A DNA stretch of 64,000 nucleotides from an uncultured Eubacteriales bacterium (GTDB lineage: Bacteria > Bacillota > Clostridia > Peptostreptococcales > Anaerovoracaceae), in the NCBI GenBank assembly GCA_900315125.1, contig OMXT01000001.1, forward strand, positions 17,747 through 81,746. Reading direction: 5' to 3'. Shown here piece after piece: positions 1,778-32,630 of this stretch. Position 1 is the stretch's first letter, and every line of letters begins with the position of its first letter. The notes under the pieces were generated by a model, which was not told the DNA's origin, searched no databases, and saw only the letters and a program-made list of their open reading frames with translations. Position numbers and translations under genes: made by a program.

Positions 1778-2857
1778 ATGAAGGATTTTTCGGATTACAA
1801 AAATATATGGGTATTCGCTGAGCAGCGCCAGGGCAAGCTCGTCAATGTGGCGCTGGAACTGATCGGCGAAGGAAGAAAGCTGGCGGCGGAGATCGGCGGA
1901 GATACCAAGCTCTGCGCAGCGCTTCTGGGAAGCGATGTGGACGGTCTAATAGACGAACTGTATGAGTACGGCGCAGACCGGGTCTATGTCATGGAACATC
2001 CGCTGCTCAAGCAGTATACGACGGACGGCTACGCCAAGGTGCTGACCGACGCGATCAATGAATACAAGCCGGAGATCGTACTCTACGGCGCGACACATAT
2101 TGGAAGAGACCTGGCGCCCCGGGTCGCGGCGAGACTGAATACCGGTCTTACGGCAGACTGCACCCGGCTGGACGTGAACATGTCCAATTACATGGATTAC
2201 CTGGAGGAAAAGACCACCGCTTCTACGAAGGGGCTGGACAGAAATGATCCGGGCACAGGTCTGAAGCAGACGAGACCGGCCTTCGGAGGCAACCTGATGG
2301 CGACCATCGTTACCCCGAACACAAGGCCTCAGATGGCAACCGTGCGCCCCGGCGTGATGGATAAGCGCGAGAGGGAAGAGGGAGCCAGAGGAGAACGGAT
2401 CGATGTGGACGTGAAGCTGGATGCTTCCGATATCCACGTAGAGGTTCTGGAAGTGGTCAAGGCTGCGAAGGAAATTGTTTCTCTTACGGACGCGTCCATT
2501 ATCTGCTCCGGCGGACGAGGACTGGGAGACGCCTCCGGATTTGAACTGATCCGGGCATTCGCCGATAAGGTCGGCGGCGTGGTGGGAGCTTCCCGTGCCG
2601 CGGTAGACGCCGGATGGATCGATCAGAGCCATCAGGTTGGGCAGACTGGAACGACCGTTAAACCGCATATATATTTTGCCTGCGGGATCTCAGGCGCGAT
2701 TCAGCATCTGGCAGGAATGCAGACGTCGGATATTATTGTTGCTATCAATAAAGACCCCGAATGCCCGATGATGCAGCTTGCGGATTATGCAATCGAGGGA
2801 GATCTGAAGAAGGTGATTCCGGAGATCATGGATCTTTGGGATACTGCGGAAGTATAG
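1778..2857 (+). CDS. etfA: Electron transfer flavoprotein subunit alpha
   Basis: 359 residues. The C-terminal FAD domain is clear: [15 protein letters not shown], the [10 protein letters not shown] segment, an [14 protein letters not shown] stretch and the [19 protein letters not shown] tail. It begins 15 bases after etfB behind a GGAGG-type site. It partners EtfB and the acyl-CoA dehydrogenase. There is no N-terminal ferredoxin domain, unlike some lactate-dehydrogenase-linked EtfA proteins. Confidence 0.95.
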
Positions 2858-2871: not shown

Positions 2872-4071
2872 ATGAGAGAAGTAGTAATTGTAGATGGAGC
2901 CCGTACTGCATTTGGCAGAAGAGGGGGCGTATTCCGCGTTTTCACACCGTCGGACCTGGCAGGAAAGACCATCCGCGGACTCTGTGACAAGACGGGGATC
3001 CTGGACAAAGACAAAGTAGACGCTGTTTTCGCAGGCTGTGCCTGGGGAGATGTGGACTGCAATAACTTTGCCAGATACTCTACGCTAAAGGCGGGACTGC
3101 CCTACGAAACGTCATCGACATTTATAGAGATGCAGTGCGGCTCTTCTATCGCGTGCATCAACAATGCGGCGCTGCAGATCGCGGCAGGCGTCATCGACGT
3201 GGCGATCGCAGGCGGAGCAGAGACCCACAGCAGAACGGCATTCAAGTTCTCTACCTGCGTAACGCCCTTTAAGGAGCAGCCGCCTGTGGCTGCCAAGATG
3301 CGTCTGGCGCCGACGGATGAAGATGACATCTCAATGATCGATATTGCGGACGGTATGGCGAAGCGCTGGGGCATTACCCGTGAGGAATGCGACCAGTTTG
3401 CCTATGACAGCCAGATGAGAGCCAAGGCGGCGATCGAGAAGGGATACTTTAAAGATGAGATCCTTCCGATCGAAGTAAAATACAGCCGCAAGAGTGATCC
3501 CGTCGTAATAACGGAAGATGAGCATCCCCGTCCCAATACTACACTGGAAGGCCTGGCCAAGATGCGTCCGGTCATGCCCGGCGGCGTTACGACGGCAGGC
3601 AATGCGTCCGGTCTGAATGACGGAGCATCCTTCGTTCTCATGATGACGAAAGAAAAGGCAGAGGAGCTGGGTTACAAACCCCTGGCACGCTGGATGGGCG
3701 GCAAGGATGTAGGCGTAGATCCCAAGGTAATGGGCATCGGACCGGCATATTCAAACATGGATCTGCTGGGACGCTTTGGACTGAAGGTATCAGATATGGA
3801 CGTCATAGAATGCAATGAGGCATTTGCGGCGCAGAATCTGAGCGTCATCAAGCAGATGGAGGAAATGAGCGGTGAGAAAATCGACCGCAGCAAGTGGAAT
3901 CCTCTGGGTGGCGCCATCGCCTTCGGTCACCCCAACGGCGCATCCGGCGGCCGGCTCTGTCTGTTCACCATGAAGGAACTGATCCGCCGCAAGGGCAAGT
4001 ACGGACTGTTCTCCGCATGCTGCGGAGGAGGCCTGGGTGTTTCCACACTGATCGAAAACATCTATGAATAA
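2872..4071 (+). CDS. Thiolase (acetyl-CoA C-acetyltransferase family)
   Basis: 399 residues from the ATG at 2872, chosen because GAGAGGTGG lies just before it; the open frame runs 37 codons further up but through the end of etfA. Thiolase marks: the nucleophile Cys region MQCGSSIAC near residue 90, GHPNGASGG with the catalytic His, and the CCGGG C-terminus. It condenses two acetyl-CoA to acetoacetyl-CoA, or cleaves a 3-ketoacyl-CoA. The Hbd and crotonase genes follow directly. A second thiolase lies at 43100-44278; the two are clearly related but not identical. Confidence 0.93.
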   Translation: MREVVIVDGARTAFGRRGGVFRVFTPSDLAGKTIRGLCDKTGILDKDKVDAVFAGCAWGDVDCNNFARYSTLKAGLPYETSSTFIEMQCGSSIACINNAALQIAAGVIDVAIAGGAETHSRTAFKFSTCVTPFKEQPPVAAKMRLAPTDEDDISMIDIADGMAKRWGITREECDQFAYDSQMRAKAAIEKGYFKDEILPIEVKYSRKSDPVVITEDEHPRPNTTLEGLAKMRPVMPGGVTTAGNASGLNDGASFVLMMTKEKAEELGYKPLARWMGGKDVGVDPKVMGIGPAYSNMDLLGRFGLKVSDMDVIECNEAFAAQNLSVIKQMEEMSGEKIDRSKWNPLGGAIAFGHPNGASGGRLCLFTMKELIRRKGKYGLFSACCGGGLGVSTLIENIYE

Positions 4072-4120: not shown

Positions 4121-4981
4121 ATGATTCAGAAGGTAGGCGTTGTGGGCGCAGGAATGATGGGCGCGGAGATCGCCCTTTGTTTCGCCCGCGAAGGATATGA
4201 AACATATCTGAATGACATAAAACTGGAAATCGCCGAGAACGGCAAGAAGAAGGAAGCTGCCGTTCTGGACAAGAATATCAAAAAAGGCAGGATCACAGAA
4301 GAGGATAAGGTCAATACACTGGCGAAGGTTCATCCCACCGGCGATATCAAGGATCTGGCGGACTGCGACCTGGTCATCGAGGCGGTCCTGGAGGTCTGGG
4401 ACGTGAAGAAGAGCGTCCATGAGAATCTGGACAAATACTGCAAGGCCAGCACGATCATCGCGTCTAATACCTCCTCTATCTCCATTTCCAAGCTGGCTTC
4501 CTGCGTGGGAAAAGACAGAAAGGGACAGTTCATCGGAACTCATTTCAACTCCCCGGCCAGTGTCATGAAACTGGTAGAAGTCATTCCGGGACTGCTGACT
4601 GAGGAATCGACCGTTACAGAGGTAACGGAACTTCTTGAGAAAATCGACAAGGTTCCTGTCCGGGTCAAGGACGTGGTGGGATTCGGCCTGAACCGGATTT
4701 TCCACTGCATGTACGGCGAGGCCATGCGCCTTGTAGAAGAGGGCGTCTGCTCCGTAGAGGATGTGGACAAGATCTGCAAGTACGGACTGGGTCATCCCAT
4801 GGGGATCTTCAAACTGCTGGATATCACGGGCCACGACCTGAACCTGGAAGTGGACGAGATCCTGTTCGACGCTTACGGCGACCGGTTCCGTCCGAGCCCC
4901 CAGCTGAAGCGCCTGGTGGATTCCGGACGCCTGGGAAGAAAGACAGGGGCTGGATTCTATGATTATGAGGAGAAGAAATAA
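4121..4981 (+). CDS. hbd: 3-hydroxyacyl-CoA (3-hydroxybutyryl-CoA) dehydrogenase
   Basis: 286 residues from the ATG at 4121, preceded by AGGAGGAG; an in-frame ATG at 4097 lacks an RBS. The Rossmann [10 protein letters not shown] motif is at residues 9-18, and the [17 protein letters not shown] stretch carries the catalytic His of the Hbd family. The [14 protein letters not shown] end is typical. Reduces acetoacetyl-CoA to 3-hydroxybutyryl-CoA (or the reverse). Its stop overlaps the crotonase start by one base (TAATG), showing translational coupling. Confidence 0.95.
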
Positions 4982-5748
4982 TGGCACAGGTTACATTAAA
5001 AGCTGCGGAAGGCATCGCTGTACTCAGCGTTGACCGTCCGGAGGCGCTGAACGCGCTGAACAGAGAAATCGTAGACCAGATGGACGAGCTCATCGACCAG
5101 GTTGCAGCGGATGATTCTGTTCGCTGCCTGGTCATCCACAGCGATAAGAACTTCGCTGCGGGGGCGGACATCAAAGCCATGGCTGAGTGTGATGAAGAAG
5201 GGGCCAAGGTCTTTGCTTTCTCGCCGACCTATAACAAGATAACAAAATTAAGTGTACCTACCATCGCTGCTATCGAGGGCTATGCCCTCGGGGGCGGCAT
5301 GGAACTGGCGCTGACTGCGGATATCCGTATCGCCGGAAAGAGTGCTAAAATGGGATTCCCCGAGGTCACCCTGGGCATATTCCCTGGAGCAGGCGGGACT
5401 ATCCGTGCTCCCAAGCTGATCGGACCGGCTCTCGCAAAGGAAATGATATTTACCGGGGACGCCATCAAGGCGGACCGGGCTCTGGCTATCGGCCTTGTAA
5501 ACCGGGTCGTAGAAGACGATCAGGTGCTGGAAGAAGCCATGAAGCTTGCGAAGAGGATCGCAAAGAGGGGTCCTGTGGCCGTTCGCATGGTAAAAGATGT
5601 TATAAACCGGGGACTTGAGGAACCGGATGTTATAAAGGGTACTGAAATCGAAGCAGAGCAGTGGGCGAAGCTGTTCAATACCTATGATCAAAAGGAAGGA
5701 ATGAAGGCATTCATGGAAAAGAGAAAGCCGACGTTCCAGAACAGGTAA
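4981..5748 (+). CDS. crt: Enoyl-CoA hydratase / 3-hydroxybutyryl-CoA dehydratase (crotonase)
   Basis: 255 residues, the family's usual length. The oxyanion-hole/CoA motif FAAGADIKAMAE is near residue 60. Both catalytic Glu sites are present: GGGMELALTADIR near residue 105 and FPEVTLGIFPGAGGT near 125. Hydrates crotonyl-CoA or dehydrates 3-hydroxybutyryl-CoA. Coupled to hbd by a one-base overlap, and 17 bases before the 2-hydroxyacyl-CoA dehydratase genes. Confidence 0.94.
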   Translation: MAQVTLKAAEGIAVLSVDRPEALNALNREIVDQMDELIDQVAADDSVRCLVIHSDKNFAAGADIKAMAECDEEGAKVFAFSPTYNKITKLSVPTIAAIEGYALGGGMELALTADIRIAGKSAKMGFPEVTLGIFPGAGGTIRAPKLIGPALAKEMIFTGDAIKADRALAIGLVNRVVEDDQVLEEAMKLAKRIAKRGPVAVRMVKDVINRGLEEPDVIKGTEIEAEQWAKLFNTYDQKEGMKAFMEKRKPTFQNR

Positions 5749-5765: not shown

Positions 5766-7001
5766 ATGGCAGAGGAAGAAAAGAGAACTTCAAAACAGCT
5801 GCTGAAGGACATCCAGGACGGAACATATGCCCGGGCCTGGGAAGCGAAAGAGAAGGGTGAGCCGGTGGTCTGGGCTACATCCATCTGTCCCGATGAGCTG
5901 CTGAACGCCATGGATCTGGTCACGGTTTACCCGGAGAACCAGGCCGGCGTTATCGGCGCCCGCAAGGAAGCCATGAAATTTATCGACCAGGCAGAAGGCG
6001 TGGGATACGGTCCGGACACCTGTTCCTACGCGAGAGTCAATATGGGTTATGTGGATCTGCAGCAGTCCGATTCACAGGATGTGCCCCTTCCGGACATCAT
6101 ATTCTCCAGCACCAACATCTGCTATACCGTGCAGAAGTGGTATGAGAATCTGTCCAAGAAGCTGAACATTCCGCTGATCCTGTTCGACATGCCCTTCAAC
6201 CACGAGTATGAGGTGACGGACAGCGCCGTAGCCTACATCCGTGGACAGCTGGAGCACGCCATAGAGCAGCTGGAGGAATTCACGGGACGGAAGATGGACT
6301 ACGACAAGCTGGCCCACGCCATGGACGTGAACAACGAGACCTGCGAATGGTGGAAGAAGGCGACAGACGAAGGCAAGTACCGTCCGTCTCCGCTGGACGG
6401 ATTTAAGATCTTCAACTACATGGCGCTGATGGTAGCGAACCGGAGTTTTGAAGACAGCCGGGACTGCTTCCGCCTGTGGTATGAGGAGCTGGAGCAGCGT
6501 CACGCGGAAGGACAGGGCCCCTGGAGCAGCTCGGAAGAGAAGTACCGGATCATCTGGGACGGCATCGCCTGCTGGCCCCACCTGTCCACCACATATAAAC
6601 TGCTGAAGAAGTACGGCATCAACATGGTCACATCCACCTATCCCCAGAGCTGGTATAAGGTCTATGAGACCAACGACCTGGACGGCATGGCCCGGGCCTA
6701 CACCGGAAACTACGCCAACCGGAACCTGGATTTCGGTGAGGACAACATGGAAACGCTGATCCGCGATTTTGACATCGACGGCGTGCTGTTCCATACGAAC
6801 CGGAGCTGCAAGCTCATGGACTTCCGTACCTTTGAGGTACAGCGCAGGATCAAGGATACCACCGGATGTCCTTCTGTTGTATTCGACGGGGACCAGACCG
6901 ATCCCAGATTATTCTCCGACGCCCAGTATGAGACGAGAGTCCAGGCACTGATGGAAATGATGGACGAATACAAAGAACAGAAGAGAAAGGGGGATCTGTA
7001 A
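5766..7001 (+). CDS. 2-hydroxyacyl-CoA dehydratase, alpha-type subunit (HgdA/HadB/FldB/LcdA family)
   Basis: 411 residues. Three Cys in the expected places for binding a [4Fe-4S] cluster are C41 (SICPDELL), C86 (DTCSYAR) and C119 (TNICYTVQKWYE). This family removes water from (R)-2-hydroxyacyl-CoA by a ketyl-radical mechanism after one-electron, ATP-dependent activation. The stop overlaps the next subunit's ATG by one base. The sequence alone does not tell whether lactoyl-, 2-hydroxybutyryl-, 2-hydroxyglutaryl-, 2-hydroxyisocaproyl- or phenyllactyl-CoA is used. The operon (Hbd, crotonase, 4-hydroxybutyryl-CoA dehydratase) favours a C4 substrate; this is inference. Confidence 0.9.
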   Translation: MAEEEKRTSKQLLKDIQDGTYARAWEAKEKGEPVVWATSICPDELLNAMDLVTVYPENQAGVIGARKEAMKFIDQAEGVGYGPDTCSYARVNMGYVDLQQSDSQDVPLPDIIFSSTNICYTVQKWYENLSKKLNIPLILFDMPFNHEYEVTDSAVAYIRGQLEHAIEQLEEFTGRKMDYDKLAHAMDVNNETCEWWKKATDEGKYRPSPLDGFKIFNYMALMVANRSFEDSRDCFRLWYEELEQRHAEGQGPWSSSEEKYRIIWDGIACWPHLSTTYKLLKKYGINMVTSTYPQSWYKVYETNDLDGMARAYTGNYANRNLDFGEDNMETLIRDFDIDGVLFHTNRSCKLMDFRTFEVQRRIKDTTGCPSVVFDGDQTDPRLFSDAQYETRVQALMEMMDEYKEQKRKGDL

Positions 7002-8134
7002 TGAGTTATCTTGATACCATAGAAGAACTGGTTCAGGCAGGACTGCATCCCGCCAAGACATGCGCGCAGACCAAGGCGTCCACAGGGAAACAGCTGATCG
7101 GATGCGTGCCCTATCATACCCCCGACGAGGTGATCTACGCCGGAAACTGCATCCCAGTAGGGCTGTGGGGCGGAAATCCGGAGTTCAAGCTGGCAGACAC
7201 CTATCTGCAGGGATTCTGTTGCGGACTGCTGCGGGCTGTCATGGAATACGCCATGGACGGGACATATAACATTCTGTCAGGCATCGTCTGTCCCACATTC
7301 TGCGACTCCATGAAATGCACACTGGAGGACCTGAAGGTGGCCACACCGGAGAGTATCCCGGTCATCGGCATGTCCTACGGCCAGCAGAGAAAGATCAAGG
7401 CCGGCAGAGACTTCACCATAAGAGAGTACAAGCGAGTCCGTCATGAGATCGAAAAGATCGCGAAGACTGCCATCACCGACGAGAAAGTGGAGGCTGCTTA
7501 TCAGATCTACGAGGATTACCGGGCGGCTATGCGGGCCTTTGAGACGGCAGCAGCGGAGCATCCGGAGATTATCACGTCCAAAAAGCGCATGATGATCATC
7601 AAGGCGGGACTTTACATGGACAAGGCGGAATATACGCCGAAGATCAGGGAGATCACAGAAGGCCTGAAGGCAGCGCCGGCGTCAGATTATGACGGCAAAC
7701 GGATCATCATCACGGGCATCATGGCAGAGCCGGCAGCGATCCTGGACATCTTCGATGAGAACGGACTGGCTGTGGTAGCCGATGAGATGTCCCTGGGATC
7801 CAGGCTGTGGCGTTCTAAGGGCCGTGACGATGTGGAAGACGTCTATGAGAAGATGGCTTACCGCTACGCCGATACCAAGGCGGATTGCTTCATGTACGAG
7901 CCGGAAAAGCTGAGAGGCCAGTACATGATGGAGCTGAAGGACAAGTATGACGCGGACGCCATCGTCATCATGATGGAGAAGTTCTGCGATCCGGAGGAAT
8001 ACGACTACCCGATCTACAAGGCGGAGCTGGAAGAAGCGGAAGTTCCCATGCTGTACATGGAAGTGGATCAGCAGACCACCGGGTTCGAGCAGATCCGCAC
8101 GAGAGTCCAGAGCTTCCGTGAGATGCTGGATTAA
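7001..8134 (+). CDS. 2-hydroxyacyl-CoA dehydratase, beta-type subunit (HgdB/HadC/FldC/LcdB family)
   Basis: 377 residues, translationally coupled to the alpha subunit (ATG shares the last A of the preceding TAA). Cys residues that can hold a second cluster include C35 and C50 (QLIGCVPYHT and AGNCIPVGLWGG), C73/C74 (GFCCGLLRA) and C97/C101/C106 (VCPTFCDSMKC). Forms the heterodimer with the preceding gene product. The ATPase activator gene follows 39 bases downstream, completing a three-gene set. Confidence 0.9.
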   Translation: MSYLDTIEELVQAGLHPAKTCAQTKASTGKQLIGCVPYHTPDEVIYAGNCIPVGLWGGNPEFKLADTYLQGFCCGLLRAVMEYAMDGTYNILSGIVCPTFCDSMKCTLEDLKVATPESIPVIGMSYGQQRKIKAGRDFTIREYKRVRHEIEKIAKTAITDEKVEAAYQIYEDYRAAMRAFETAAAEHPEIITSKKRMMIIKAGLYMDKAEYTPKIREITEGLKAAPASDYDGKRIIITGIMAEPAAILDIFDENGLAVVADEMSLGSRLWRSKGRDDVEDVYEKMAYRYADTKADCFMYEPEKLRGQYMMELKDKYDADAIVIMMEKFCDPEEYDYPIYKAELEEAEVPMLYMEVDQQTTGFEQIRTRVQSFREMLD

Positions 8135-8173
8135 GCGGTAACTTATAACAGAGAGAAAGCAAAGGAGAAGAGC

Positions 8174-8968
8174 GTGTATCTAGGAATTGACATTGGATCC
8201 TCTTCCTCTAAAGTAGCGCTGATCAATGACCGGAAGGAGATCGCGGCGATCTCCATCATCAACCGGGGGACCGGGACGGACGCTCCGGCCCGGGCTCTGG
8301 CGGATGCCATGGAGAAGGCCGGCGTAACGGAAGAGGATATCGACTATACAGTGGCCACGGGCTACGGACGGATCACCTACGAAGGGGCGGACAAGCAGAT
8401 CACGGAGATCACATGCCATGCCAAGGGCGTGAGCTATCTGGATCCGGGCGCCCGGACCATCATCGACATCGGCGGGCAGGACGCCAAGGTGATCAAGCTG
8501 AGCCCCAAGGGCCATGTGGAGAACTTCGTCATGAATGAGAAGTGCGCCGCGGGAACGGGCCGCTTCCTGGAGGTCATGGCGCGGGTCCTGGGCTGCACGC
8601 TGGAGGAACTTTCTCCTTTGGCGGACCAGTCCACGAAGGACGTGGCGATCAGCAGCGTATGCACCGTCTTCGCGGAGAGCGAAGTGATCTCCCGGCTGGC
8701 CGCCGGGGAGACGCTGCCGGACGTGGCACGGGGCGCCCACATCTCTGTTGCCCATCGGGTAACAGGGCTTTGTAACAGAGTAGGCTGCGAACCGAAGGTC
8801 GTGATGACTGGAGGCGTGGCGCTGAACAGCAACATGGTGGACGCGCTGTCCAAGGAGCTGGGCTGCATGGTGGAGGTCGTACCGAACTGCCAGGCGGCAG
8901 GCGCGGTGGGCGCGGCGCTGTTCGCTTACGAGGCAGGCACAAAGGCTGCTGCGAAGGAGAAAAAATAA
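8174..8968 (+). CDS. 2-hydroxyacyl-CoA dehydratase activator ATPase (HgdC/HadI family)
   Basis: 264 residues, starting at GTG 8174 with AAGGAG at 8162-8167. ASKHA ATPase fold: GIDIGSSSSK at residues 4-13 and DIGGQDAKVI near 100. The two Cys that bridge the homodimer's [4Fe-4S] cluster are in NEKCAAGTGRF and SSVCTVFAESEV. Injects one high-energy electron, at the cost of ATP, into the dehydratase dimer. The terminal TAATG overlaps the FabZ-like gene by one base. Confidence 0.94.
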   Translation: MYLGIDIGSSSSKVALINDRKEIAAISIINRGTGTDAPARALADAMEKAGVTEEDIDYTVATGYGRITYEGADKQITEITCHAKGVSYLDPGARTIIDIGGQDAKVIKLSPKGHVENFVMNEKCAAGTGRFLEVMARVLGCTLEELSPLADQSTKDVAISSVCTVFAESEVISRLAAGETLPDVARGAHISVAHRVTGLCNRVGCEPKVVMTGGVALNSNMVDALSKELGCMVEVVPNCQAAGAVGAALFAYEAGTKAAAKEKK

Positions 8969-9405
8969 TGAGTATATCTATGGACCGGGAAGGGATCATG
9001 AAGGTGATCCCGCACCGGGATCCCATGCTCCTGGTAGACGAAGTCGTCTCTATGGAGCCGGAGAAAGAAATCAATACGAAGTTCTACGTAGGACCGGAGC
9101 GGGAGATCTTCAAGGGGCATTTCCCTGGAGATCCCGTACTCCCCGGCGTCTACACGGTGGAGATCATGGCACAGTCATCGGATATACTGATCCTTTCCAT
9201 GGATCGGTATGCTGGAAAGACGCCGCTTTTCATCGGAATAAATAACGTAAAATTCAAGAGCCCGATCCGCCCCGGCGATACGCTGGAGATCCATTCGGCG
9301 ATCACCTATGAGAGGGAAGAGAAGGCAATCGTAACCTGCAGCGCAGAAGTCTATGACGCCGGTACGTTGGCATGTACCGGAGATGTGACGCTTGCCATGC
9401 GGTAA
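8968..9405 (+). CDS. FabZ-like hot-dog fold 3-hydroxyacyl dehydratase
   Basis: 145 residues. FabZ hallmarks: IPHRDPMLLVDEV near residue 15, FKGHFPGDPVLPGVYTVEIM near residues 50-70 with the catalytic His (GHFPG) and Glu (VEIMAQ) both kept. FabZ normally acts on acyl-ACP in fatty acid synthesis. Here the gene is coupled to the activator ATPase inside a CoA-ester operon with no fab genes nearby. An acyl-CoA dehydratase/hydratase role is likely but inferred; it could instead be a thioesterase-like relative. Confidence 0.8.
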   Translation: MSISMDREGIMKVIPHRDPMLLVDEVVSMEPEKEINTKFYVGPEREIFKGHFPGDPVLPGVYTVEIMAQSSDILILSMDRYAGKTPLFIGINNVKFKSPIRPGDTLEIHSAITYEREEKAIVTCSAEVYDAGTLACTGDVTLAMR

Positions 9406-9465
9406 GAGCACAGCTGCGTAATAGGATACATCAATTCAGCTGACATTATTTTGGAGGTAACAAAA

Positions 9466-10812
9466 ATGGGATGGCAGGAAACCTATAAAGAAAGATGCGT
9501 ATCAGCGGAGGAAGCGCTGAGTCATATTAAGGATGGAGAGATGCTGGTACCGGCACATAACTCGGCGGAGCCGAAGTACCTGTTCCAGAAGCTCTGTGAG
9601 ATGAAGGACAACTGGAACCAGCTGGGCATTCTGCAGGGACTGAACATCGGCGATGCTCCCTATGCTCAGGACGACATGTACCCCACATTCATCGACTGGT
9701 CCTTCTTCCCAGGCAGCAAGAACAGAAACTACGTCAACACCGGAAGGGGCCAGATGATCCCCATGCATTTCTACGCTCAGCCCAAGGCAATGAGAGAAGG
9801 AAATGTACCTGTAGATGTGGGATTCCTGCAGGTAACGCCGCCGGATGAGGACGGATATGTCTGGATGGGCACATCCTGTGACCAGGTCCGGGTGATTCTG
9901 GACAAAGCCCGCATCAATATCGCACAGGTCAACAGCAATCTGCCCCACGTTATGGGTGAAACGAAGATTCCAGTGGAGGACATCGACTACTACGTAGAAT
10001 ATGATGAGCCGATCTATGAAATGGCCAAGATCCCCGAGGGAGACGAAGTGGCCATGAAGATCGGCAAGAATATCGCGGGACTCATCGAGGACGGCGCATG
10101 CCTGCAGATGGGTCAGGGCAAGATCCCCAACGCGATCCTGCCTTATCTGGAGGATAAGAAGGATCTGGGCATCCATACGGAAGTATTCTCCGACAATCTG
10201 CTGCCCCTGATCGAAAAAGGCGTCATCACCTGTGCCAGAAAGAACATCGATACGGGTAAGATCGTCGCCACATTCGTTCAGGGCAGCCCGGAATTCTACA
10301 AGTATGTTGACTACAATCCTTTCGTCAAGCTCATGCCTGTAGAATATACCAACGCAGTCCGGACCATCGCGCAGATCGACAATATGGTAGCCATCAACTC
10401 TGCAATAGAGGTGGACGCCATGGGGCAGGTTGTTGCTGATTCCATCGGACCCAAAATGTTCTCCGGCGTCGGCGGACAGCAGGACTTCATCCGGGGCGCG
10501 GAAGAATCCAACGGAGGAAAGGCCATTATCGCTCTGCCCTCCACGACAAAGCATGATACCATCTCTAAGATCGTAGGCGTCCTGAAACCGGGCACACCGG
10601 TAACAACAACGAGAAACGACGTGCATTATGTCGTTACGGAATACGGCGTGGCTGACCTGTTCGGCAAGTCTCTTGACCAGCGCTGCAAAGCTCTGGTGGA
10701 GATTGCGCACCCCAAGTTCCGTGAGCAGATCGAAAGAGATTATTACGAATACCGGAAGGCTGCCGGGCAGATTTATTTCTGGCATATCGGCCCGTTCGAT
10801 CCGGAGGAGTAA
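9466..10812 (+). CDS. abfT: 4-hydroxybutyrate-type CoA-transferase (acetyl-CoA hydrolase/transferase family)
   Basis: 448 residues from ATG 9466; GGAGG at 9453-9457 selects this start over the in-frame TTG at 9451. The family's glutamyl-CoA nucleophile is E239 in GIHTEVFSD, almost the same number as E238 known in the Clostridium aminobutyricum enzyme. The MGQGKIPNAIL loop before it is typical. Moves CoA from acetyl-CoA or butyryl-CoA to 4-hydroxybutyrate. Position directly before abfD supports that substrate; other short hydroxyacids are possible. Confidence 0.85.
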   Translation: MGWQETYKERCVSAEEALSHIKDGEMLVPAHNSAEPKYLFQKLCEMKDNWNQLGILQGLNIGDAPYAQDDMYPTFIDWSFFPGSKNRNYVNTGRGQMIPMHFYAQPKAMREGNVPVDVGFLQVTPPDEDGYVWMGTSCDQVRVILDKARINIAQVNSNLPHVMGETKIPVEDIDYYVEYDEPIYEMAKIPEGDEVAMKIGKNIAGLIEDGACLQMGQGKIPNAILPYLEDKKDLGIHTEVFSDNLLPLIEKGVITCARKNIDTGKIVATFVQGSPEFYKYVDYNPFVKLMPVEYTNAVRTIAQIDNMVAINSAIEVDAMGQVVADSIGPKMFSGVGGQQDFIRGAEESNGGKAIIALPSTTKHDTISKIVGVLKPGTPVTTTRNDVHYVVTEYGVADLFGKSLDQRCKALVEIAHPKFREQIERDYYEYRKAAGQIYFWHIGPFDPEE

Positions 10813-10827
10813 GGAAGGAGCTAAATA

Positions 10828-12303
10828 ATGGCTTTAATGACAGCAGAACAGTATATAGAAAGTCTGCGCAAAATGAAAACAAGAGTGTATATGTTCGGCG
10901 AGCAGATCGAGAACTGGGTAGATCATCCCATGATCCGCCCTTCCATCAACAGCGTCGCCATGACATATCAGCTGGCACAGGATCCCCAGTACGAGGACCT
11001 GATGACAGCGACCTCCCACCTGACCGGTGAGAAGGTAAACCGTTTCGCTCATATCCACCAGAGTTCGGAGGACCTTAAGAAGAAGGTCAAGATGCAGCGT
11101 CTCCTGGGTCAGAAGACCGCGAGCTGCTTTCAGCGCTGCGTAGGTATGGACGCTCTGAATGCAGAGTATTCCACTACCTATGAGATCGACAAGAAGTACG
11201 ACACCCATTATCACGAAAATCTGAAAAACTTCCTGATCTACATTCAGAAAAATGACCTGATCGTCGACGGCGCCATGACAGACCCCAAGGGCAACCGCAG
11301 CAAAGCGCCTCATGCCCAGGATGATGCTGACCTCTTCGTACGGATCAAAGAACGCAGAGAAGACGGGATCGTCGTCCGCGGCGCCAAGGTTCATCAGACC
11401 GGATCCGTCAACTCCCACTGGCACATTGTCATGCCTACTATCTCCATGGGACCCGACGACAAGGACTATGCTGTTTCCTTCGCATGCCCCAGCGACGCAG
11501 AGGGAATGTTCATGGTCTACGGACGTCAGTCCTGCGATACCAGAAAACTGGAGGAGAATGCGGACATCGATCTGGGCAACGCCAAGTTCGGCGGGCAGGA
11601 AGCTCTGGTAGTATTCGATGACGTGTTCATTCCCAATGAATATATCTTCATGTGCGGAGAATATGATTTCGCAGGCATGCTCGTTGAGCGCTTCGCGGGT
11701 TATCACCGCCAGTCCTACGGCGGCTGCAAGGTCGGCGTAGGCGACGTTGTGATCGGCGCGGCTGCTCTGGCAGCGGAATACAACGGCTGCGAGAAGGCTT
11801 CTGCGATCAAGGATAAGCTGATCGAGATGACTCACCTGAACGAGACGCTGTACTGCTGCGGTCTGGCATGTTCCACAGAGGGACATCCCACCGAATCCGG
11901 CGCCTATATCATCGACCTGCTCCTTGCCAACGTCTGCAAGCAGAACGTGACGAGATTCCCATACGAGATCGTAAGACTGGCAGAGGACATTGCGGGAGGA
12001 ATCATGGTAACCATGCCTTCCCAGAAGGACTTCGAATCGGATCTGCCTGTAGGTAGAAACGGCGAGACCATCGGAGACTTCTGTCAGAAGTTCTTCGTGG
12101 GCAACGGAAACTGCACGACGGAAGAGAGAATGCGGGTCATGCGTTTCCTGGAGAACATGTGCCTCGGCGCAGCTGCCGTTGGCTACAGGACAGAGTCCAT
12201 GCACGGCGCAGGTTCACCGCAGGCGCAGCGCATCATGATCGCCCGTCAGGGCAACATCCAGGCGAAGAAACAGCTGGCTAAGGATATCGCCGGCATTAAA
12301 TAA
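10828..12303 (+). CDS. abfD: 4-hydroxybutyryl-CoA dehydratase / vinylacetyl-CoA isomerase
   Basis: 491 residues. All four [4Fe-4S] ligands known for this enzyme are visible at the expected spacing: C100 and C104 (SCFQRC) and H293 and C300 (YHRQSYGGC), each shifted by one from the published C99/C103/H292/C299. FAD-fold segments include HQTGSVNSHWHIVMPT. Converts 4-hydroxybutyryl-CoA to crotonyl-CoA by a radical route. Last gene of the operon; a hairpin follows the stop. The intact ligand set separates it from the flavin monooxygenases of the same superfamily. Confidence 0.95.
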   Translation: MALMTAEQYIESLRKMKTRVYMFGEQIENWVDHPMIRPSINSVAMTYQLAQDPQYEDLMTATSHLTGEKVNRFAHIHQSSEDLKKKVKMQRLLGQKTASCFQRCVGMDALNAEYSTTYEIDKKYDTHYHENLKNFLIYIQKNDLIVDGAMTDPKGNRSKAPHAQDDADLFVRIKERREDGIVVRGAKVHQTGSVNSHWHIVMPTISMGPDDKDYAVSFACPSDAEGMFMVYGRQSCDTRKLEENADIDLGNAKFGGQEALVVFDDVFIPNEYIFMCGEYDFAGMLVERFAGYHRQSYGGCKVGVGDVVIGAAALAAEYNGCEKASAIKDKLIEMTHLNETLYCCGLACSTEGHPTESGAYIIDLLLANVCKQNVTRFPYEIVRLAEDIAGGIMVTMPSQKDFESDLPVGRNGETIGDFCQKFFVGNGNCTTEERMRVMRFLENMCLGAAAVGYRTESMHGAGSPQAQRIMIARQGNIQAKKQLAKDIAGIK

Positions 12304-12325: not shown

Positions 12326-12362
12326 CTGGGGCAGGTCTTTGGTTTTCCATGGCCTGCCCCAG
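12326..12362 (+). terminator. Probable rho-independent terminator after abfD
   Basis: Ten-base perfect stem CTGGGGCAGG / CCTGCCCCAG (12326-12335 and 12353-12362) with a 17-base loop, 22 bases after the abfD stop. The T-tract is poor (GTCTTTCT), so termination may be partial. Confidence 0.5.
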
Positions 12363-12437: not shown

Positions 12438-14183
12438 ATGACGAACGAGAAATATCAGAAGAAAGAAAAACAGAACGCATCCTGGGTCCGCTGGATCTGG
12501 CCCCAGAGTGATGCATTGCGCCTGGGCATGGGCTGGGATGAAGAAGATGTAAATAAACCCTACATACTGGTGGAGGATGTCTACGGCGATTCTCACCCGG
12601 GCAGCATCCACCTGAACCGTCTGGCGTCCCAGGTTCGCGAAGGCATTACGGCTTCCGGGGGCAAGGCGGCGGGATATCATGTAACGGATATCTGTGACGG
12701 CTGCGCCCAGGGCCACGACGGTATGAACTATATCCTGACGCAGAGAGAAGCAATAGCCGACATGGTACAGATCCACGGCAGCGTCCATCCATGGGACGGT
12801 CTGGTCCTCATATCCTCCTGCGATAAGTCGGTGCCGGCCCACCTTATGGCGGCAGCCCGCCTGGATCTTCCCACGGTTTTCGTGCCCGGCGGATCCATGA
12901 GACCAGGACCGTACCTGACGGACGCGGGAAGAGGCGGCGGCGTTGCCCTTGGGCGGCGCCAGGGAACCATGGATGAGTTTGAAGTCCTGCAGTACGTGCG
13001 CACTGGATGTCCTTCCTGCGGCGCCTGCCAGTTCATGGGTACCGCCAGCACCATGCAGTGCATGACGGAGGCGCTGGGTCTGGCACTGCCGGGAACAGCC
13101 TTATCACCAGCGACCATGAATGATATCAACCGCTCTGCAAGGGCTGCAGGCCATATGGTCATGGAGCTTGCCCGCCAGGGGATCCGTGCCAGCGATATTT
13201 TAACAAAGGCATCGCTGCGGAACGCAATCATCATTCACGCCGCTATCGGGGGTTCCACAAACGGTTTTCTCCATCTTCCGGCGCTGGCACACGAGCTGGG
13301 CATCCGTCTGGATATCAGCGAATTCGACGAGATCAACCGGAAGGTGCCCCATATATGCAATATTGCCCCCAGCGGGAAATATCCGTCGGAACTGTTCTGG
13401 TTCGCCGGGGGCATACCGAAGGTGCAGGAGATGCTTTCGGATATGCTGGATCTGGACGTCATGACGGTCACAGGCAAGACTCTGGGTGAGAACCTGAAGG
13501 TCATTCGGGGCAGCGGATTCTATGAGAGAGGGTTGGGATATCTGGCCAATTACGGCGTGGATCCGGAGGATGTGATGATCCCCGTGGATAAATGTAAAGT
13601 CATCGGCTCTGTCGCCGTGCTGAAGGGCAATATCGCTCCGGAAGGGTCTGTGGTCAAATATTCTGCGGTGGCGGAGGATATGCAGCAGCATACAGGACCG
13701 GCGCGGGTGTTCGACAGCGAGGAAGCCTGCAACAAGGCGGTGGTGGACCAGACCATCGAGCCCGGTTCGGTGCTGATCATCCGATATGAAGGACCCCGGG
13801 GCTCCGGGATGCCGGAGATGTTCATGACGACAGAAGCGATCATGAACGATGAGAAGCTCAGTTCTTCTACGGTGCTGCTGACGGACGGCAGGTTTTCCGG
13901 CGCTACGAGAGGCCCCTGTGTCGGCCATATCTCACCGGAAGCTCAGGCAGGCGGTCCCATAGCCTTCGTGGAAGACGGGGATCTGATCGAACTGGATATC
14001 CCGAACCGATCGATCAATGTCGTGGGTATCCAGGGCGAGTACTGCTCGCCGGAGGAGGCAGCGCGGGTGCTGAAAGAGCGGAGCCAGGGCTTTGTCCCAA
14101 AAGAGCACAGGGGACGCAGAGGCATATTCCGCCGCTACACGGAGCGGGCCGCTTCCGCTATCGAGGGCGCGTATATGAAATAA
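12438..14183 (+). CDS. IlvD/Edd-family sugar-acid dehydratase
   Basis: 581 residues, start ATG 12438 with GGGAGG at 12423-12428. Fe-S ligand regions of the family are recognisable but drifted from IlvD: ICDGCAQGHDGM near residue 90 (IlvD has CDGIAMGHEGM), SSCDKSVPAH near 125 and GCPSCGACQFMGTASTM near 195. The C-terminal TDGRFSGATRGPCVGHISPEA is well kept. Members dehydrate aldonic or dihydroxy acids to 2-keto-3-deoxy acids. No branched-chain amino acid genes are near; UxaA-type, TRAP and KduD-like genes follow, so a sugar acid substrate is more likely. The exact acid is unknown. Confidence 0.82.
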   Translation: MTNEKYQKKEKQNASWVRWIWPQSDALRLGMGWDEEDVNKPYILVEDVYGDSHPGSIHLNRLASQVREGITASGGKAAGYHVTDICDGCAQGHDGMNYILTQREAIADMVQIHGSVHPWDGLVLISSCDKSVPAHLMAAARLDLPTVFVPGGSMRPGPYLTDAGRGGGVALGRRQGTMDEFEVLQYVRTGCPSCGACQFMGTASTMQCMTEALGLALPGTALSPATMNDINRSARAAGHMVMELARQGIRASDILTKASLRNAIIIHAAIGGSTNGFLHLPALAHELGIRLDISEFDEINRKVPHICNIAPSGKYPSELFWFAGGIPKVQEMLSDMLDLDVMTVTGKTLGENLKVIRGSGFYERGLGYLANYGVDPEDVMIPVDKCKVIGSVAVLKGNIAPEGSVVKYSAVAEDMQQHTGPARVFDSEEACNKAVVDQTIEPGSVLIIRYEGPRGSGMPEMFMTTEAIMNDEKLSSSTVLLTDGRFSGATRGPCVGHISPEAQAGGPIAFVEDGDLIELDIPNRSINVVGIQGEYCSPEEAARVLKERSQGFVPKEHRGRRGIFRRYTERAASAIEGAYMK

Positions 14184-14257
14184 TAATTGAATGAAAATAC
14201 ACCTATGTGGATAAAAGACAGAAAATTACAAGAAGTCTGCAGGAGAGGATAGTTATT

Positions 14258-15751
14258 ATGAAAGTAATGAAGTTATATCCCCGGGACACGGTGGCACTGG
14301 CGGTGGAGGAACTGAAAAAGGGCGATCGCGTAACCATCGACGGGCAGGAGATCGAGGTGCTGGACAATATTCCCCAGGCTCACAAGATCGCGCTGAAGGA
14401 TTTCGCGGAAGGCGAGGGGATCCGCAAATACGACAATATCATCGGCAACGCGTCCCGTCCGATCCGCAGAGGCGAGTGGGTCCACAGCCATAATGAAGTG
14501 ACCACGCTGGGAAAGGAAAGGGAATATTGCTACGAACCGGTGGAGGACGCTGTGTACCCCGGCGAGTCGGACCGGACGTTCATGGGATACGAGCGGAGCA
14601 ACGGGACATGCGGTATCCGTAATTATGTGGCTGTCATTTCTACTGTGTTCTGCGCAAACGGCCCCCTTGCCCGCATCGCGTCGGAGGCGCGGAAGAAGTA
14701 TGAGCCGAATGATCATTTCGACGGATTCGTGGCGCTGGATCAGGAATTCGGCTGCAGCCAGACCGGCGAGGATCTTGTGACAACGGAGAAGATCATCGCG
14801 AACATCGCCCGTTCCGCGAACTTCGGCGGCGTACTGCTGGTCAGCCTGGGATGTGAGATGGCCATACCCTCAGAACTTACTCAGTATATGACGGATCTGG
14901 ACCCAGCCCGGATCCAGGTGATCACTCTGCAGGAGAGCCCTGATGAAATCGGCGAAGCCATGGAGAAGATCGATCTGCTGATGAAGGAGATCGATAAGGA
15001 CAGGCGGCAGCCTCAGCCCTTCAGCAAGCTCCATATCGCTGTGAACTGCGGGGGCTCCGACGGCTACTCCGGCATTACGGCAAACACCATGCTGGGCACG
15101 CTCTGCGATCGGCTCGTGTCAGAAGGAGCTACGGTCAATATGACCGAGGTGCCGGAGATGATGGGGGCGGAGCACATCCTGATGAACCGGGCGAAGGACG
15201 AAGAGACATTTCAGAAAATCGTCTGGATGATCCGAGAATATAACACGTATTTCGACCGCTATGGCGAGAAGGCGGCGGATAATCCCACCCAGGGCAATAA
15301 GGCCGGCGGCCTGACCACATTGGAGGAGAAGTCTCTGGGCTGCATTCAGAAGGGCGGTCACTGCGCAGTCATGGGCGTCTATGATTACGGTGAGGCGGTG
15401 GATACCAGAGGGTACGTGCTGGTCAGCGGTCCGGGGAACGACCTGGCAGGCGTCAGCGGGCAGATCGCGGCAGGTGCGGTGCTCACCCTGTTTACTACCG
15501 GCCGGGGAACGCCATGTGGATTTGCAGGGCCTACATTCCGCCTGTCATCCAACAGCGCACTGGCGGAGCGGAAGCCGGGGTGGATCGACTATGACGCGGG
15601 GCGTTTTCTGGGTGCTTCTGAGGATACAAAGGCCAGGCTGGACCAGGAACTCTACGACCAGGTCATGGCGTGTCTTGACGGTGCACAAACCTGCAATGAA
15701 AAAAACGGATATTTCCAGATGGGCGCGCTGAAAGACGGTGTAACGCTGTAG
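14258..15751 (+). CDS. UxaA-family altronate/sugar-acid dehydratase (first copy)
   Basis: 497 residues from ATG 14258 with AGGAGAGG at 14241-14248; an in-frame ATG at 14207 has no RBS. N-terminal SAF-like domain (residues 1-90, AHKIALKDFAEGEGIRKY) and C-terminal catalytic domain with DQEFGCSQTGED, CGGSDGYSGITAN and GGLTTLEEKSLGCIQKGG. Dehydrates D-altronate or a similar aldonate to the 2-keto-3-deoxy acid. A second UxaA lies at 26443-27909 in the AT-rich island. Since that copy sits with uxaB and uxaC, this one probably serves another acid (galactarate-, threonate- or galactonate-like); not determinable here. Confidence 0.85.
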   Translation: MKVMKLYPRDTVALAVEELKKGDRVTIDGQEIEVLDNIPQAHKIALKDFAEGEGIRKYDNIIGNASRPIRRGEWVHSHNEVTTLGKEREYCYEPVEDAVYPGESDRTFMGYERSNGTCGIRNYVAVISTVFCANGPLARIASEARKKYEPNDHFDGFVALDQEFGCSQTGEDLVTTEKIIANIARSANFGGVLLVSLGCEMAIPSELTQYMTDLDPARIQVITLQESPDEIGEAMEKIDLLMKEIDKDRRQPQPFSKLHIAVNCGGSDGYSGITANTMLGTLCDRLVSEGATVNMTEVPEMMGAEHILMNRAKDEETFQKIVWMIREYNTYFDRYGEKAADNPTQGNKAGGLTTLEEKSLGCIQKGGHCAVMGVYDYGEAVDTRGYVLVSGPGNDLAGVSGQIAAGAVLTLFTTGRGTPCGFAGPTFRLSSNSALAERKPGWIDYDAGRFLGASEDTKARLDQELYDQVMACLDGAQTCNEKNGYFQMGALKDGVTL

Positions 15752-15820: not shown

Positions 15821-16300
15821 ATGGATAAAGATGATAAAGAACGGATGGATATTCAAACGGAAGAGACTGAAACAGATGCAGAAGAACTGATGGAGAACGC
15901 GGCGCAGCCGGAGGAAGACGAGGGCGCCCGGGCTTCCCGGATGATGTTCAACTGGAAGGTGATCGGCACGGTAGTGATCATCGTGCTCGGTGCCATGTTC
16001 TGTCTGCACAGCTGGGATTCCGACGGATCGTATCCGGTAAATCTGAAGTCGGAGAAGGGCGCTGCCTGGCAATGTGTCAGCGTTCAGCAGGAACGTATAG
16101 AGGTCAGCCCCGTTAAGGGTAAAGACGGAAAAGACTCCTTCGAACTGACAGGAAAGGAACTGGGGAAATGCAAAGTGGTATTTCAGCTTCAGGAAAGCGG
16201 GAACCCGTCCAGCGTGCGGAAAACTGTGGAATATTATTTCGAAGTCATGAAGGGAAACCAGATCCGCTTCCTGAAAATGCAGCGCCATGAAGGTGCATAA
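15821..16300 (+). CDS. Single-pass membrane protein of unknown function
   Basis: 159 residues, start ATG 15821 behind GAGAGGAGG. No family recognised. Residues 1-42 are very acidic, with runs of Glu/Asp. One membrane helix lies at about residues 46-63 (WKVIGTVVIIVLGAMFC). The rest is a small domain, presumably outside the cell, with alternating strand-like segments (WQCVSVQQERIEVSP, KCKVVFQLQE, VEYYFEVM), possibly an inhibitor- or protease-domain-like beta fold. It stands between the UxaA-type dehydratase and the TRAP binding protein, in the same direction. Confidence 0.7.
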   Translation: MDKDDKERMDIQTEETETDAEELMENAAQPEEDEGARASRMMFNWKVIGTVVIIVLGAMFCLHSWDSDGSYPVNLKSEKGAAWQCVSVQQERIEVSPVKGKDGKDSFELTGKELGKCKVVFQLQESGNPSSVRKTVEYYFEVMKGNQIRFLKMQRHEGA

Positions 16301-16311: not shown

Positions 16312-16459
16312 GATGCAAATGTGCATCAGGCAAGGCAATATTGCATCGGAATACTTAAAATTTTCGGAATATATAAACGGTCGACCATCCTGAAACGGTT
16401 GAATTTTACAGCATTTAACCATGGGTTCTGAAATTTTGAACATTGGCACATCACTTGCA
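16312..16459 (+). promoter_or_regulatory. Sigma-54 promoter of dctP with candidate activator sites
   Basis: The 245 bases between 16300 and 16546 hold no gene. TGGCAC at 16444-16449 and TTGCA at 16455-16459 have the exact spacing of a sigma-54 -24/-12 promoter. Upstream are a palindrome GATGCA-N4-TGCATC (16312-16327), a further TTGCATC near 16341, and a direct repeat AAACGGTCGA / AAACGGTTGA at 16375-16384 and 16393-16402, one of which may be the enhancer site. The nearest activator gene of the right class is at 41504-42883. Confidence 0.8.
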
Positions 16460-24779: not shown

Positions 24780-24967
24780 GTTATTTACCTCTAAAGGATC
24801 TTTTGTATGCTTAATTTTACTGCAGCCAGCTCGAAACCGCAAGTTATAACGTCTTTAGATGACTAGATTATTCAAAAAGGAATTACTGAATTATTGAAGT
24901 CATACACGCATATGCGAAAATGCCAAAGAATAGTCAGGAATATGCATAGTGTATAAATAATAGCTGA

Positions 24968-24981
24968 TGTAAAAGCTTACA
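24968..24981. promoter_or_regulatory. LacI-type operator O1
   Basis: TGTAAAAGCTTACA, dyad TGTAA-N4-TTACA. It lies between the regulator and uxaB and shares arms with the three other sites. Possible autoregulation or looping partner. Confidence 0.75.
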
Positions 24982-25061
24982 ATTAGGTTGCAATAATGTA
25001 CATCGACAATGCTTAATGTTAGATTTTGATTACATTTGCGAGAGAAAATTTGCGAAAATCA

Positions 25062-32629: not shown

Positions 32630-32630
32630 T

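Follow-up and report, generated by a model that had tools for sequence, protein, structure and literature searches.

Gene organization of the operon

The window considered here is a 64,000-nucleotide stretch (G000:C82:17747-81746) of a 2.3-Mb draft genome that is 98% complete. Close to its start, the genes of a predicted ATP-activated 2-hydroxyacyl-CoA dehydratase (hadB, hadC and hadI) and of a predicted 4-hydroxybutyryl-CoA dehydratase (abfD) stand in one operon. Six genes occupy 5766-12303 on one strand, as open frames without stops and with intergenic gaps of -1 to 57 bases; hadB is preceded, in this order, by genes for a sigma54-type activator, acd, etfB, etfA, thl, hbd and crt (Table 1). 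A preliminary description of this DNA had reported the 2-hydroxyacyl-CoA dehydratase set, a FabZ-like protein, a CoA-transferase and AbfD together, with Bcd/Etf upstream. The frames and the family and PDB searches agree with this, the names etfB and etfA being those that we presume from family features. The crotonase that it counted in the same set is present but sits just outside 5766-12303.

Properties of the predicted enzymes

HadB and HadC each match family HGD-D, and the best PDB match of both is 3o3m, the HadBC enzyme of C. difficile. HadB is 43% identical to 3o3m_A and its C86, C119 and C348 are invariant among 13 sequences, while C74, C101 and C329 of HadC align with Cys of 3o3m_B. In an excerpt of PMC8473912, the clusters of HGD-D-type dehydratases are described as having three Cys each. 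Two subunits with three conserved Cys each thus place HadB and HadC, as far as sequence goes, among the ATP-activated (R)-2-hydroxyacyl-CoA dehydratases of the HadBC/HgdAB type. Their best NCBIfam models are the HadB and HadC equivalogs (470.9 bits for a cut-off of 750, and 374.9 bits for a cut-off of 700), i.e. neither protein reaches the curated cut-offs of the (R)-2-hydroxyisocaproyl-CoA dehydratase equivalogs NF052455/NF052456. Some HadB columns are clade-specific, e.g. His at 272, which is Tyr in C. difficile. The linked activator HadI belongs to BcrAD_BadFG and has Cys124 and Cys163, which we take to be its cluster ligands.

AbfD (HpaB_N and HpaB) matches 1u8v, the AbfD of C. aminobutyricum, over its full length (489 residues, 924 bits). 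C100, C104, H293 and C300, presumably the [4Fe-4S] ligands of 1u8v, are all present, so that the complete ligand set noted in the preliminary description holds, and the protein is predicted to catalyse 4-hydroxybutyryl-CoA dehydration. The FabZ-like protein is of the FabA-like family; it exceeds the cut-off of PRK00006 and stays below that of TIGR01750 (117 bits, cut-off 155). The CoA-transferase, of the acetyl-CoA hydrolase/transferase family, has 3eh7 as best PDB match (409 bits), followed by 9vag and 3gk7, and by sequence is closest to the solved 4-hydroxybutyrate CoA-transferases.

The thl-hbd-crt module is divergent. Against PRK05809 (cut-off 394), each of nine genomes has a crotonase at 350-374 bits, under the cut-off, and in eight of the nine the window-type operon crotonases score 257-281 bits; that of the Sinanaerobacter locus reaches 328. 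The window genome has a second crotonase more canonical (367 bits) than its operon copy (280), both being under the cut-off. Comparison of operon-type with other sequences gives no fixed differences for crt and six for thl. The window Hbd does not carry the motif HFFNP of a canonical butyrate thl-hbd-crt set, a motif that follows the catalytic His. It reads HFNSPAS instead, as in 15 of the 16 operon-type proteins (at least 58% identical to the window Hbd, within the 21-row set of HadB loci defined below); the last one, at L065, reads HFFSPAS. Among 32 other Hbd-like proteins the first changed position is Phe in 30 and the second Asn in 29; Ser at the second position is found also in the Hbd of the Sinanaerobacter locus and in an L055 paralog. 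The altered motif may fit a substrate other than plain 3-hydroxybutyryl-CoA, without naming which, and hints at hydroxylated intermediates.

Conservation of the hadBCI-abfD pairing

HadB was searched in 349 genomes of the family and was found at E<=1e-100 in 57 of them. A HadB at least 65% identical to that of the window is restricted to eight loci in seven genomes, the window locus among them; these loci were matched to their gene neighbourhoods by contig coordinates. In six of the eight, abfD lies inside the operon (window, G007 twice, Emergencia timonensis, L057) or directly before the activator gene (G034). The two others have it on another contig beside genes of a tripartite ATP-independent periplasmic (TRAP) transporter (G296) or elsewhere (G172). 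Clostridium aminobutyricum, whose HadB is 63% identical, also has abfD in the operon. The gene order is the same in G007, E. timonensis, L057 and C. aminobutyricum, which argues that the operon is not a chance assembly. One G007 copy has a transposase-like gene (by eye) between acd and etfB (L043:17506-18717).

A maximum-likelihood tree was built from 89 HadB rows. The window protein falls in nested sets of 3, 6, 13 and 21 rows (support 100/100, 100/100, 99/98 and 97/87), and the C. difficile enzyme groups away from it with hadA-linked loci. The 21-row set was compared to the 67 rows of other loci. Since the gene labels follow similarity thresholds set on the window proteins and the loci differ in length, a gene scored as absent may have been missed, and rows that are related count as dependent. 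With this reading, in-locus abfD is seen in 7 of the 21 rows vs 1 of the 67, fabZ in 13 vs 1, a KduD-like short-chain dehydrogenase/reductase (SDR) in 9 vs 1, gldA in 5 vs 0 and uxaA in 5 vs 0. Conversely, the class III CoA-transferase gene hadA is found in 0 vs 16 rows and a class III aminotransferase gene in 0 vs 9.

AbfD is encoded somewhere in the genome in 16 of 17 chosen genomes, three of them outside the 21-row set, and in 13 of the 14 chosen within it, the miss being the genome of L064. It is present in 30 of 35 genomes with HadB at E<=1e-150 vs 126 of 314 others (Fisher p 3e-7, for a hand count that ignores kinship). The pairing of hadBCI with abfD is real but restricted. Nearness of AbfD to HadB-type sets and joint conservation of both, on which the preliminary description made its proposal depend, are borne out for the closest loci and not for HadB loci at large.

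Outside the closest loci, G339 has contiguous hadBCI-abfD (L262:12078-16746) with a HadB only 58% identical, downstream of TRAP genes and of a beta-keto acid cleavage enzyme-like gene (by eye); this is possibly an independent joining of the two dehydratases. In a genome of the same genus (L049, G002:C28, 11228-15586) hadB is gone together with the 5' part of hadC, and hadI, abfD and an Fe-alcohol dehydrogenase gene are kept.

Table 1. Features of the operon and its surroundings (window positions unless a locus is given; ORF, open reading frame)
Feature	Position	Strand	Basis or remark
sigma54-type activator gene, upstream of acd	L003:15903-17378	same direction as acd	named from sequence, which holds GAFTGA
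acd, acyl-CoA dehydrogenase	27..956	+	start upstream of window; complete as 379 aa in L003:17563-18702
etfB	975..1763	+	open frame, conserved order; name presumed from family features
etfA	1778..2857	+	open frame, conserved order; name presumed from family features
thl, thiolase, divergent type	2872..4071	+	ORF listed from 2761
hbd, 3-hydroxyacyl-CoA dehydrogenase, altered active-site motif	4121..4981	+	ORF listed from 4097
crt, crotonase, divergent type	4981..5748	+	PRK05809 score (see text)
hadB, 2-hydroxyacyl-CoA dehydratase alpha subunit	5766..7001	+	family, NCBIfam, PDB searches
hadC, 2-hydroxyacyl-CoA dehydratase beta subunit	7001..8134	+	family, NCBIfam, PDB searches
hadI, ATP-dependent activator	8174..8968	+	CoA_E_activ 271 bits, cut-off 125
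FabZ-like hotdog dehydratase/hydratase	8968..9405	+	PRK00006 125.6 bits, cut-off 113
CoA-transferase, 4-hydroxybutyrate CoA-transferase group	9463..10812	+	listed from TTG at 9451; PDB search
abfD, predicted 4-hydroxybutyryl-CoA dehydratase	10828..12303	+	PDB 1u8v match, presumed cluster ligands complete
9-bp inverted repeat between abfD and ilvD	12328..12362	.	by eye; no clean T run; not in terminator scan
IlvD/EDD-family dehydratase	12438..14183	+	family searches
UxaA/GarD-family dehydratase, hadBC-linked group	14249..15751	+	ORF listed from 14207
hyp159, small conserved ORF before TRAP genes	15821..16300	+	
sigma54 -24/-12 element TGGCACATCACTTGCA	16444..16459	+	upstream of dctP, no mismatch
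dctP, TRAP solute-binding protein	16546..17619	+	Pfam
dctQ-like TRAP small membrane subunit	17854..18393	+	conserved order; presumed name
dctM-like TRAP large membrane subunit	18390..19703	+	conserved order; presumed name
Zn-dependent alcohol dehydrogenase, Tdh/L-idonate DH-like	19821..20840	+	
SDR dehydrogenase, KduD/gluconate 5-DH-like	20855..21619	+	ORF listed from 20831

Sugar-acid genes beside the operon

Behind abfD the window carries genes of sugar-acid enzyme families and of a TRAP importer, whose dctQ and dctM names rest on features that we presume to be typical. The IlvD copy is nearer to dihydroxy-acid dehydratases, enzymes of small substrates, than to named sugar-acid dehydratases; the second IlvD-family gene of the genome is at C33. 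The SDR is 45-72% identical to those of ten other hadBC-type loci. PDB matches of DctP predict no specific TRAP ligand.

We compared five genomes: the window genome, G007, E. timonensis, C. aminobutyricum and Sinanaerobacter. In all five the operon is accompanied by a TRAP importer, a distinct UxaA-type dehydratase, a KduD-like SDR and a Zn- or GldA-type dehydrogenase. In four, the window genome excepted, an orthologous D-2-hydroxyacid dehydrogenase family protein (U0a, 46-70% alike among six genomes) is encoded near the operon. In G007 the operon continues through ilvD (18 bases behind abfD), uxaA and dctPQM, with sdr, U0a and adh downstream of dctM over about 14 kb. In E. timonensis abfD is followed by uxaA (opposite strand), hyp159, dctPQM, a second sigma54-type activator gene, thl2 and coaT2, and U0a-sdr-adh starts 3.5 kb behind coaT2. 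In C. aminobutyricum U0a, a sigma54 activator gene, uxaA, dctPQM, an AEC-type permease gene (by eye) and gldA-sdr precede acd, the whole cluster from U0a through abfD spanning about 25 kb. Sinanaerobacter has contiguous dctPQM, uxaA overlapping U0a, acd..hadBCI-fabZ-coaT and gldA-sdr. An overlap of uxaA with a 2-hydroxyacid dehydrogenase gene (L060) would be understandable if a 2-hydroxy acid is what the following step requires. We had also considered the GldA-like protein U6 as a 2-oxoacid reductase, but it proved to be a glycerol dehydrogenase-type protein.

The preliminary description had taken the IlvD, UxaA and TRAP genes as next-door suppliers of the operon. These are conserved partners, but the uxaB/uxaC/kdgA/kdgK-type genes further on look like a separate island. 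Positions 24800-39520 have a low GC content (38-43%) and read as a hexuronate island with uxaB, uxaA, uxaC, an ABC transporter, epimerase-like genes, kdgA and kdgK (kdgA and uxaA by family matches, the rest by eye), with a transposase-like gene ahead of it at 21730-23445. Since the island has low GC and its own uxaA, we set it aside as supplier. The operon-linked UxaAs, with one from L064, share 49-78% identity and are 36-41% identical to the UxaA of the island.

Four genomes have ORFs resembling hyp159 next to their TRAP genes (the window, L056:18267-18677, L155:9171-9698 and L165:14818-15276). Conservation is poor (24-32% identity); inspection by eye suggests one membrane segment, and hyp159 has no Pfam match at E<=0.001.

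Sigma54-type elements and transcription units

The window has two exact matches to TGGCACN5TTGC, one before dctP and one before thl2 (43015), where about 0.03 would be expected per 64 kb at equal base frequencies. A one-mismatch site precedes acd (L003:17483). With at most one mismatch, E. timonensis has sites before the divergent uxaA/hyp159, dctP, dctQ, thl2 and U0a-sdr-adh, and C. aminobutyricum before dctP and gldA-sdr, as well as before U0a, uxaA and the activator gene if starts are read as in relatives. Against 100 shuffles, the segments hold 6 sites in E. timonensis (mean 1.5, largest 6), 8 in C. aminobutyricum (0.7, 4), 4 in Sinanaerobacter (0.5, 4) and 4 in the window region (1.2, 4). 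Some sites are inside genes (3 of 8 in C. aminobutyricum, 2 of 4 in Sinanaerobacter, 2 of 4 in the window region). Genome-wide counts are 17 in the window genome vs 4 in the control and 70 in E. timonensis vs 8, and given these numbers we dropped the idea of a private regulon.

The 134-base gap between abfD and ilvD in the window holds a 9-bp inverted repeat, possibly an attenuator, so that co-transcription of the two genes is putative here. A second sigma54 unit at 40425-45891, with the exact element at 43015, comprises genes for an AEC-like permease, an activator, a thiolase and a butyrate-type CoA-transferase; its relatives sit right behind the TRAP genes in E. timonensis (L156).

A proposed route from a C4 sugar acid

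We tentatively propose, as a reading with a real but somewhat less than even chance of being right, that the operon supplies the CoA-dependent core reactions by which the cell, under sigma54 control, ferments a short sugar acid taken up from outside; a C4 tetronate (threonate or erythronate) is the likeliest substrate. From gene content, gene order, conservation and conserved ligand positions we infer the following reactions, substrates, chain length and order of steps. The TRAP transporter would import the sugar acid. The SDR and the Zn-alcohol dehydrogenase (GldA elsewhere) might adjust the hydroxyl adjoining the terminal CH2OH; the association of these dehydrogenases suggests oxidation and reduction at this carbon, which is C3 of a tetronate. 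IlvD/UxaA would remove the C3 hydroxyl to give 4-hydroxy-2-oxobutyrate, which a D-2-hydroxyacid dehydrogenase (U0a in relatives) would reduce to (R)-2,4-dihydroxybutyrate. Once this is activated by the CoA-transferase, HadBC with HadI would take off the C2 hydroxyl by the ketyl-radical mechanism, yielding 4-hydroxycrotonyl-CoA, Acd/EtfBA would reduce it to 4-hydroxybutyryl-CoA, and AbfD would take off the C4 hydroxyl. The resulting crotonyl-CoA could be reduced to butyryl-CoA or cleaved via crt-hbd-thl. A C4 sugar acid is the simplest chain giving nearly every conserved gene a step. AbfD acts on C4 4-hydroxyacyl-CoA and, provided that it works in series with the other enzymes, would set the chain at four carbons.

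By bookkeeping, the path from tetronate to crotonyl-CoA uses two reductant pairs per tetronate. It would accordingly serve as a sink for electrons from a second substrate, unless oxidation to acetyl-CoA and glycolyl-CoA is a further fate of 4-hydroxycrotonyl-CoA. A true branch point at this intermediate, beside the reductive Acd/Etf-AbfD branch, is distinctly unlikely in our view. FabZ/Crt would hydrate it to 3,4-dihydroxybutyryl-CoA, Hbd (HFNSPAS) would oxidise this to 4-hydroxyacetoacetyl-CoA, and the divergent thiolase would release acetyl-CoA and glycolyl-CoA. The balance (C4H8O5 = acetate + glycolate) would be redox-neutral, via radical 2-hydroxyacyl-CoA dehydration.

The preliminary description had raised a 2,4-dihydroxybutyryl-CoA stripped at C2, reduced and then stripped at C4. 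The recurrence of UxaA, TRAP and SDR/alcohol dehydrogenase genes, U0a in four of the five genomes and the missing 2-keto-3-deoxy-6-phosphogluconate (KDPG) aldolase in three of them (see below) favour such a route, its reactions remaining putative. The nearness of the IlvD copy to dehydratases of small substrates, the SDR, gldA and uxaA counts of the 21-row set and the sigma54 elements before acd and dctP also speak for it.

Several observations weigh against the tetronate proposal. Chain length is its most vulnerable point, since abfD is missing from wider-set loci; of 80 named HadB loci, 37 of which have about 10 kb on both sides, only four carry it in their fetched flanks (L056, L057, L061, L070), AbfD occurs in 156 of the 349 genomes, in many contexts (at a stricter threshold), and Sinanaerobacter has none in the locus and two elsewhere. 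The FabZ-like protein has no clear role in the proposed route. TRAP genes (8 of 21 rows vs 11 of 67) and D-2-hydroxyacid dehydrogenase genes (5 of 21 vs 15 of 67) are found in loci outside the set too. No ortholog of U0a is seen in the window genome, where four of the nine PF02826 matches were compared and are no more than 32% identical to U0a; a sigma54-preceded pair of hbd-like and D-lactate-dehydrogenase-like genes on C38 might take its place. As for sigma54, sites with up to two mismatches show no excess (44 vs 55 expected in the window, 13 vs 16 in L003), none with up to one precedes acd in E. timonensis or C. aminobutyricum, a shuffle equalled the observed count in three of four segments, and such elements are common throughout the genome of E. 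timonensis. Finally, G007 has genes resembling 2-keto-3-deoxygluconate (KDG) kinase and KDPG aldolase between U0a and adh which, with the hexuronate island of the window, make a hexonate reading possible.

Alternative readings

The best surviving alternative, which we find rather doubtful, is that HadBC acts on (R)-2-hydroxybutyryl-CoA, FabZ on (R)-3-hydroxybutyryl-CoA and AbfD on 4-hydroxybutyryl-CoA, all three meeting at crotonyl-CoA. The 2-hydroxybutyryl-CoA would stem from 2-oxobutyrate, or from 2,3-dihydroxybutyrate through IlvD/UxaA. AbfD and a CoA-transferase of the C4 type suit this scheme, but it leaves unexplained the SDR with GldA or Zn-alcohol dehydrogenase, whose families are known to act on sugar acids and vicinal diols. 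It would also make needless a divergent thl-hbd-crt with altered Hbd beside a more canonical crotonase (no search for another hbd or thl was made), and for this reason the separate 2-, 3- and 4-hydroxybutyryl-CoA inputs raised in the preliminary description are weakened.

It is also unlikely that the sugar-acid genes lie next to the butyrate/hydroxyacid operon without sharing a function with it. In that case the Zn-alcohol dehydrogenase and SDR would act like IdnD/IdnO, IlvD/UxaA would make KDG for cleavage by KdgK/KdgA, and HadBC/AbfD would ferment hydroxy acids derived from amino acids. This is consistent with the resemblance of the SDR to KduD/gluconate 5-dehydrogenase and of the alcohol dehydrogenase to Tdh/L-idonate dehydrogenase, with the kdgA/kdgK-type genes of the island and the kinase- and aldolase-like genes of G007, and with aminotransferase genes beside both U0a-type genes of G007 (by eye). 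But if UxaA/IlvD made KDG, a KDPG aldolase would be expected. Among 15 genomes, PF01081 (other KDG aldolase families were not searched) has no match in five: E. timonensis, Sinanaerobacter, C. aminobutyricum, G034 and G072. Nine are above cut-off, including G007 and the genome of L064 (G069), and the match in G063 is under it. The family is thus absent from three of the five genomes with a linked UxaA, and the sole copy of the window genome is within the low-GC island, which points to a 2-keto-3-deoxy product without that sink. Against separate neighbours also stand the linked UxaAs, a group apart from that of the island, and the recurrence of much the same neighbour set in distinct genera.

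Very unlikely is a route from pyruvate through (R)-lactate to propionate, with HadBC as lactoyl-CoA dehydratase, Acd as acryloyl-CoA reductase and AbfD serving another input. A D-2-hydroxyacid dehydrogenase is often nearby, and the best NCBIfam model of Acd is the acryloyl-CoA reductase AcrC of C. propionicum, but at 517 bits, below the cut-off of 640. Moreover crt-hbd-thl would have no role on acryloyl-CoA, and in E. timonensis an Acd/Etf set (acd 86%, L157) lies directly behind an abfD without hadBC, which fits crotonyl-CoA. Glutamate fermentation via 2-hydroxyglutaryl-CoA was set aside, no glutaconyl-CoA decarboxylase or Gct-type genes having been noticed in the operon neighbourhoods, in which no dedicated search was made.

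Relation to known systems

The tetronate route would be new, although all its enzyme families are known. The window set resembles HadBC/HadI of C. difficile by its two HGD-D subunits, ATP-dependent activator and conserved Cys positions. It differs by a HadB in a separate, well supported clade, and by the presence, in place of hadA, of a 4-hydroxybutyrate-type CoA-transferase with thl/hbd/crt and often TRAP, SDR or UxaA. AbfD and a related CoA-transferase are shared with the 4-aminobutyrate/4-hydroxybutyrate pathway (AbfD-AbfT-AbfH) of C. aminobutyricum. In that organism the abfD-coaT-FeADH (Fe-alcohol dehydrogenase) set that we take as the classic one (L160) is separate from the hadBCI operon, which has its own abfD, 66% identical to that of the window. 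Radical dehydration of a short 2-hydroxyacyl-CoA followed by Acd/Etf recalls the acrylate/threonine route (Lcd) of Anaerotignum propionicum, compared here by description only; the window operon joins to it AbfD, thl/hbd/crt and sugar-acid genes. Hexonate pathways (UxaA/IlvD, IdnD/IdnO-type dehydrogenases) share the enzyme families of uptake and first steps, but with no KDPG aldolase in three of the five genomes the product would appear to be reduced and CoA-activated instead.

To our knowledge, radical 2-hydroxyacyl-CoA dehydratases have so far been tied to amino-acid, lactate and related fermentations. The open full-text literature was searched by terms and judged from these and from listings, most subscription papers and preprints being outside it. 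It yielded nothing on 4-hydroxycrotonyl-CoA, and no account of 2,4-dihydroxybutyryl-CoA being dehydrated or of sugar acids being degraded with a radical dehydratase. Nothing was found either that joins threonate, dehydratase and 4-hydroxy-2-oxobutanoate, or dihydroxybutyr- with acyl-CoA dehydratase. 4-Hydroxybutyryl-CoA dehydratase is never named there together with 2-hydroxyisocaproyl-CoA dehydratase, nor 2-hydroxyacyl-CoA dehydratase with altronate dehydratase. The remark in the preliminary description that it knew of no described 2,4-dihydroxybutyryl-CoA pathway agrees with this literature, where dihydroxybutyryl-CoA reportedly appears in a polyester paper. For the single steps, excerpts of PMC8473912 and PMC10053330 describe lactyl-CoA dehydratase as dehydrating 2-hydroxybutyryl-CoA, and an excerpt of PMC5715108 describes AbfD as acting in the 4-aminobutyrate butyrate pathway.

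If the tetronate route is correct, radical 2-hydroxyacyl-CoA dehydratases would serve sugar acids too, and C. aminobutyricum, the textbook AbfD organism, and E. timonensis from the human gut would use tetronates as electron acceptors, an undescribed trait, with butyrate-type products. The cluster of the window genome, that of a gut-type anaerobe, would then probably import a short sugar acid, remove its hydroxyls stepwise by two unusual radical enzymes and lead to products of the butyrate type. Since cultured strains have the whole cluster, the question is directly testable.

Other loci with related genes

Nine loci of sister HadB groups (L048, L069, L074, L075, L087, L089, L091, L098 and L105, L048 and L089 being the same place) have hadBCI-hbd-crt-thl-coaT with a class III-type aminotransferase gene, and eight of the nine an Fe-type alcohol dehydrogenase gene. 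Some are directly behind argC-argJ-argB-like genes. This looks like an undescribed amino-acid fermentation.

The window genome has a second abfD (80%; G000:C67, L004:10995-18080, abfD at 12960-14438) in a sigma54-preceded unit with cyclase-like and Hbd-like genes, then 2-oxoacid:ferredoxin oxidoreductase-like genes (by eye). The arrangement cyclase-hbdL-abfD is also found in E. timonensis (L158), and in G331 (L268) as cyclase-hbdL-thl2-(one gene)-abfD behind TRAP genes (names by eye except abfD).

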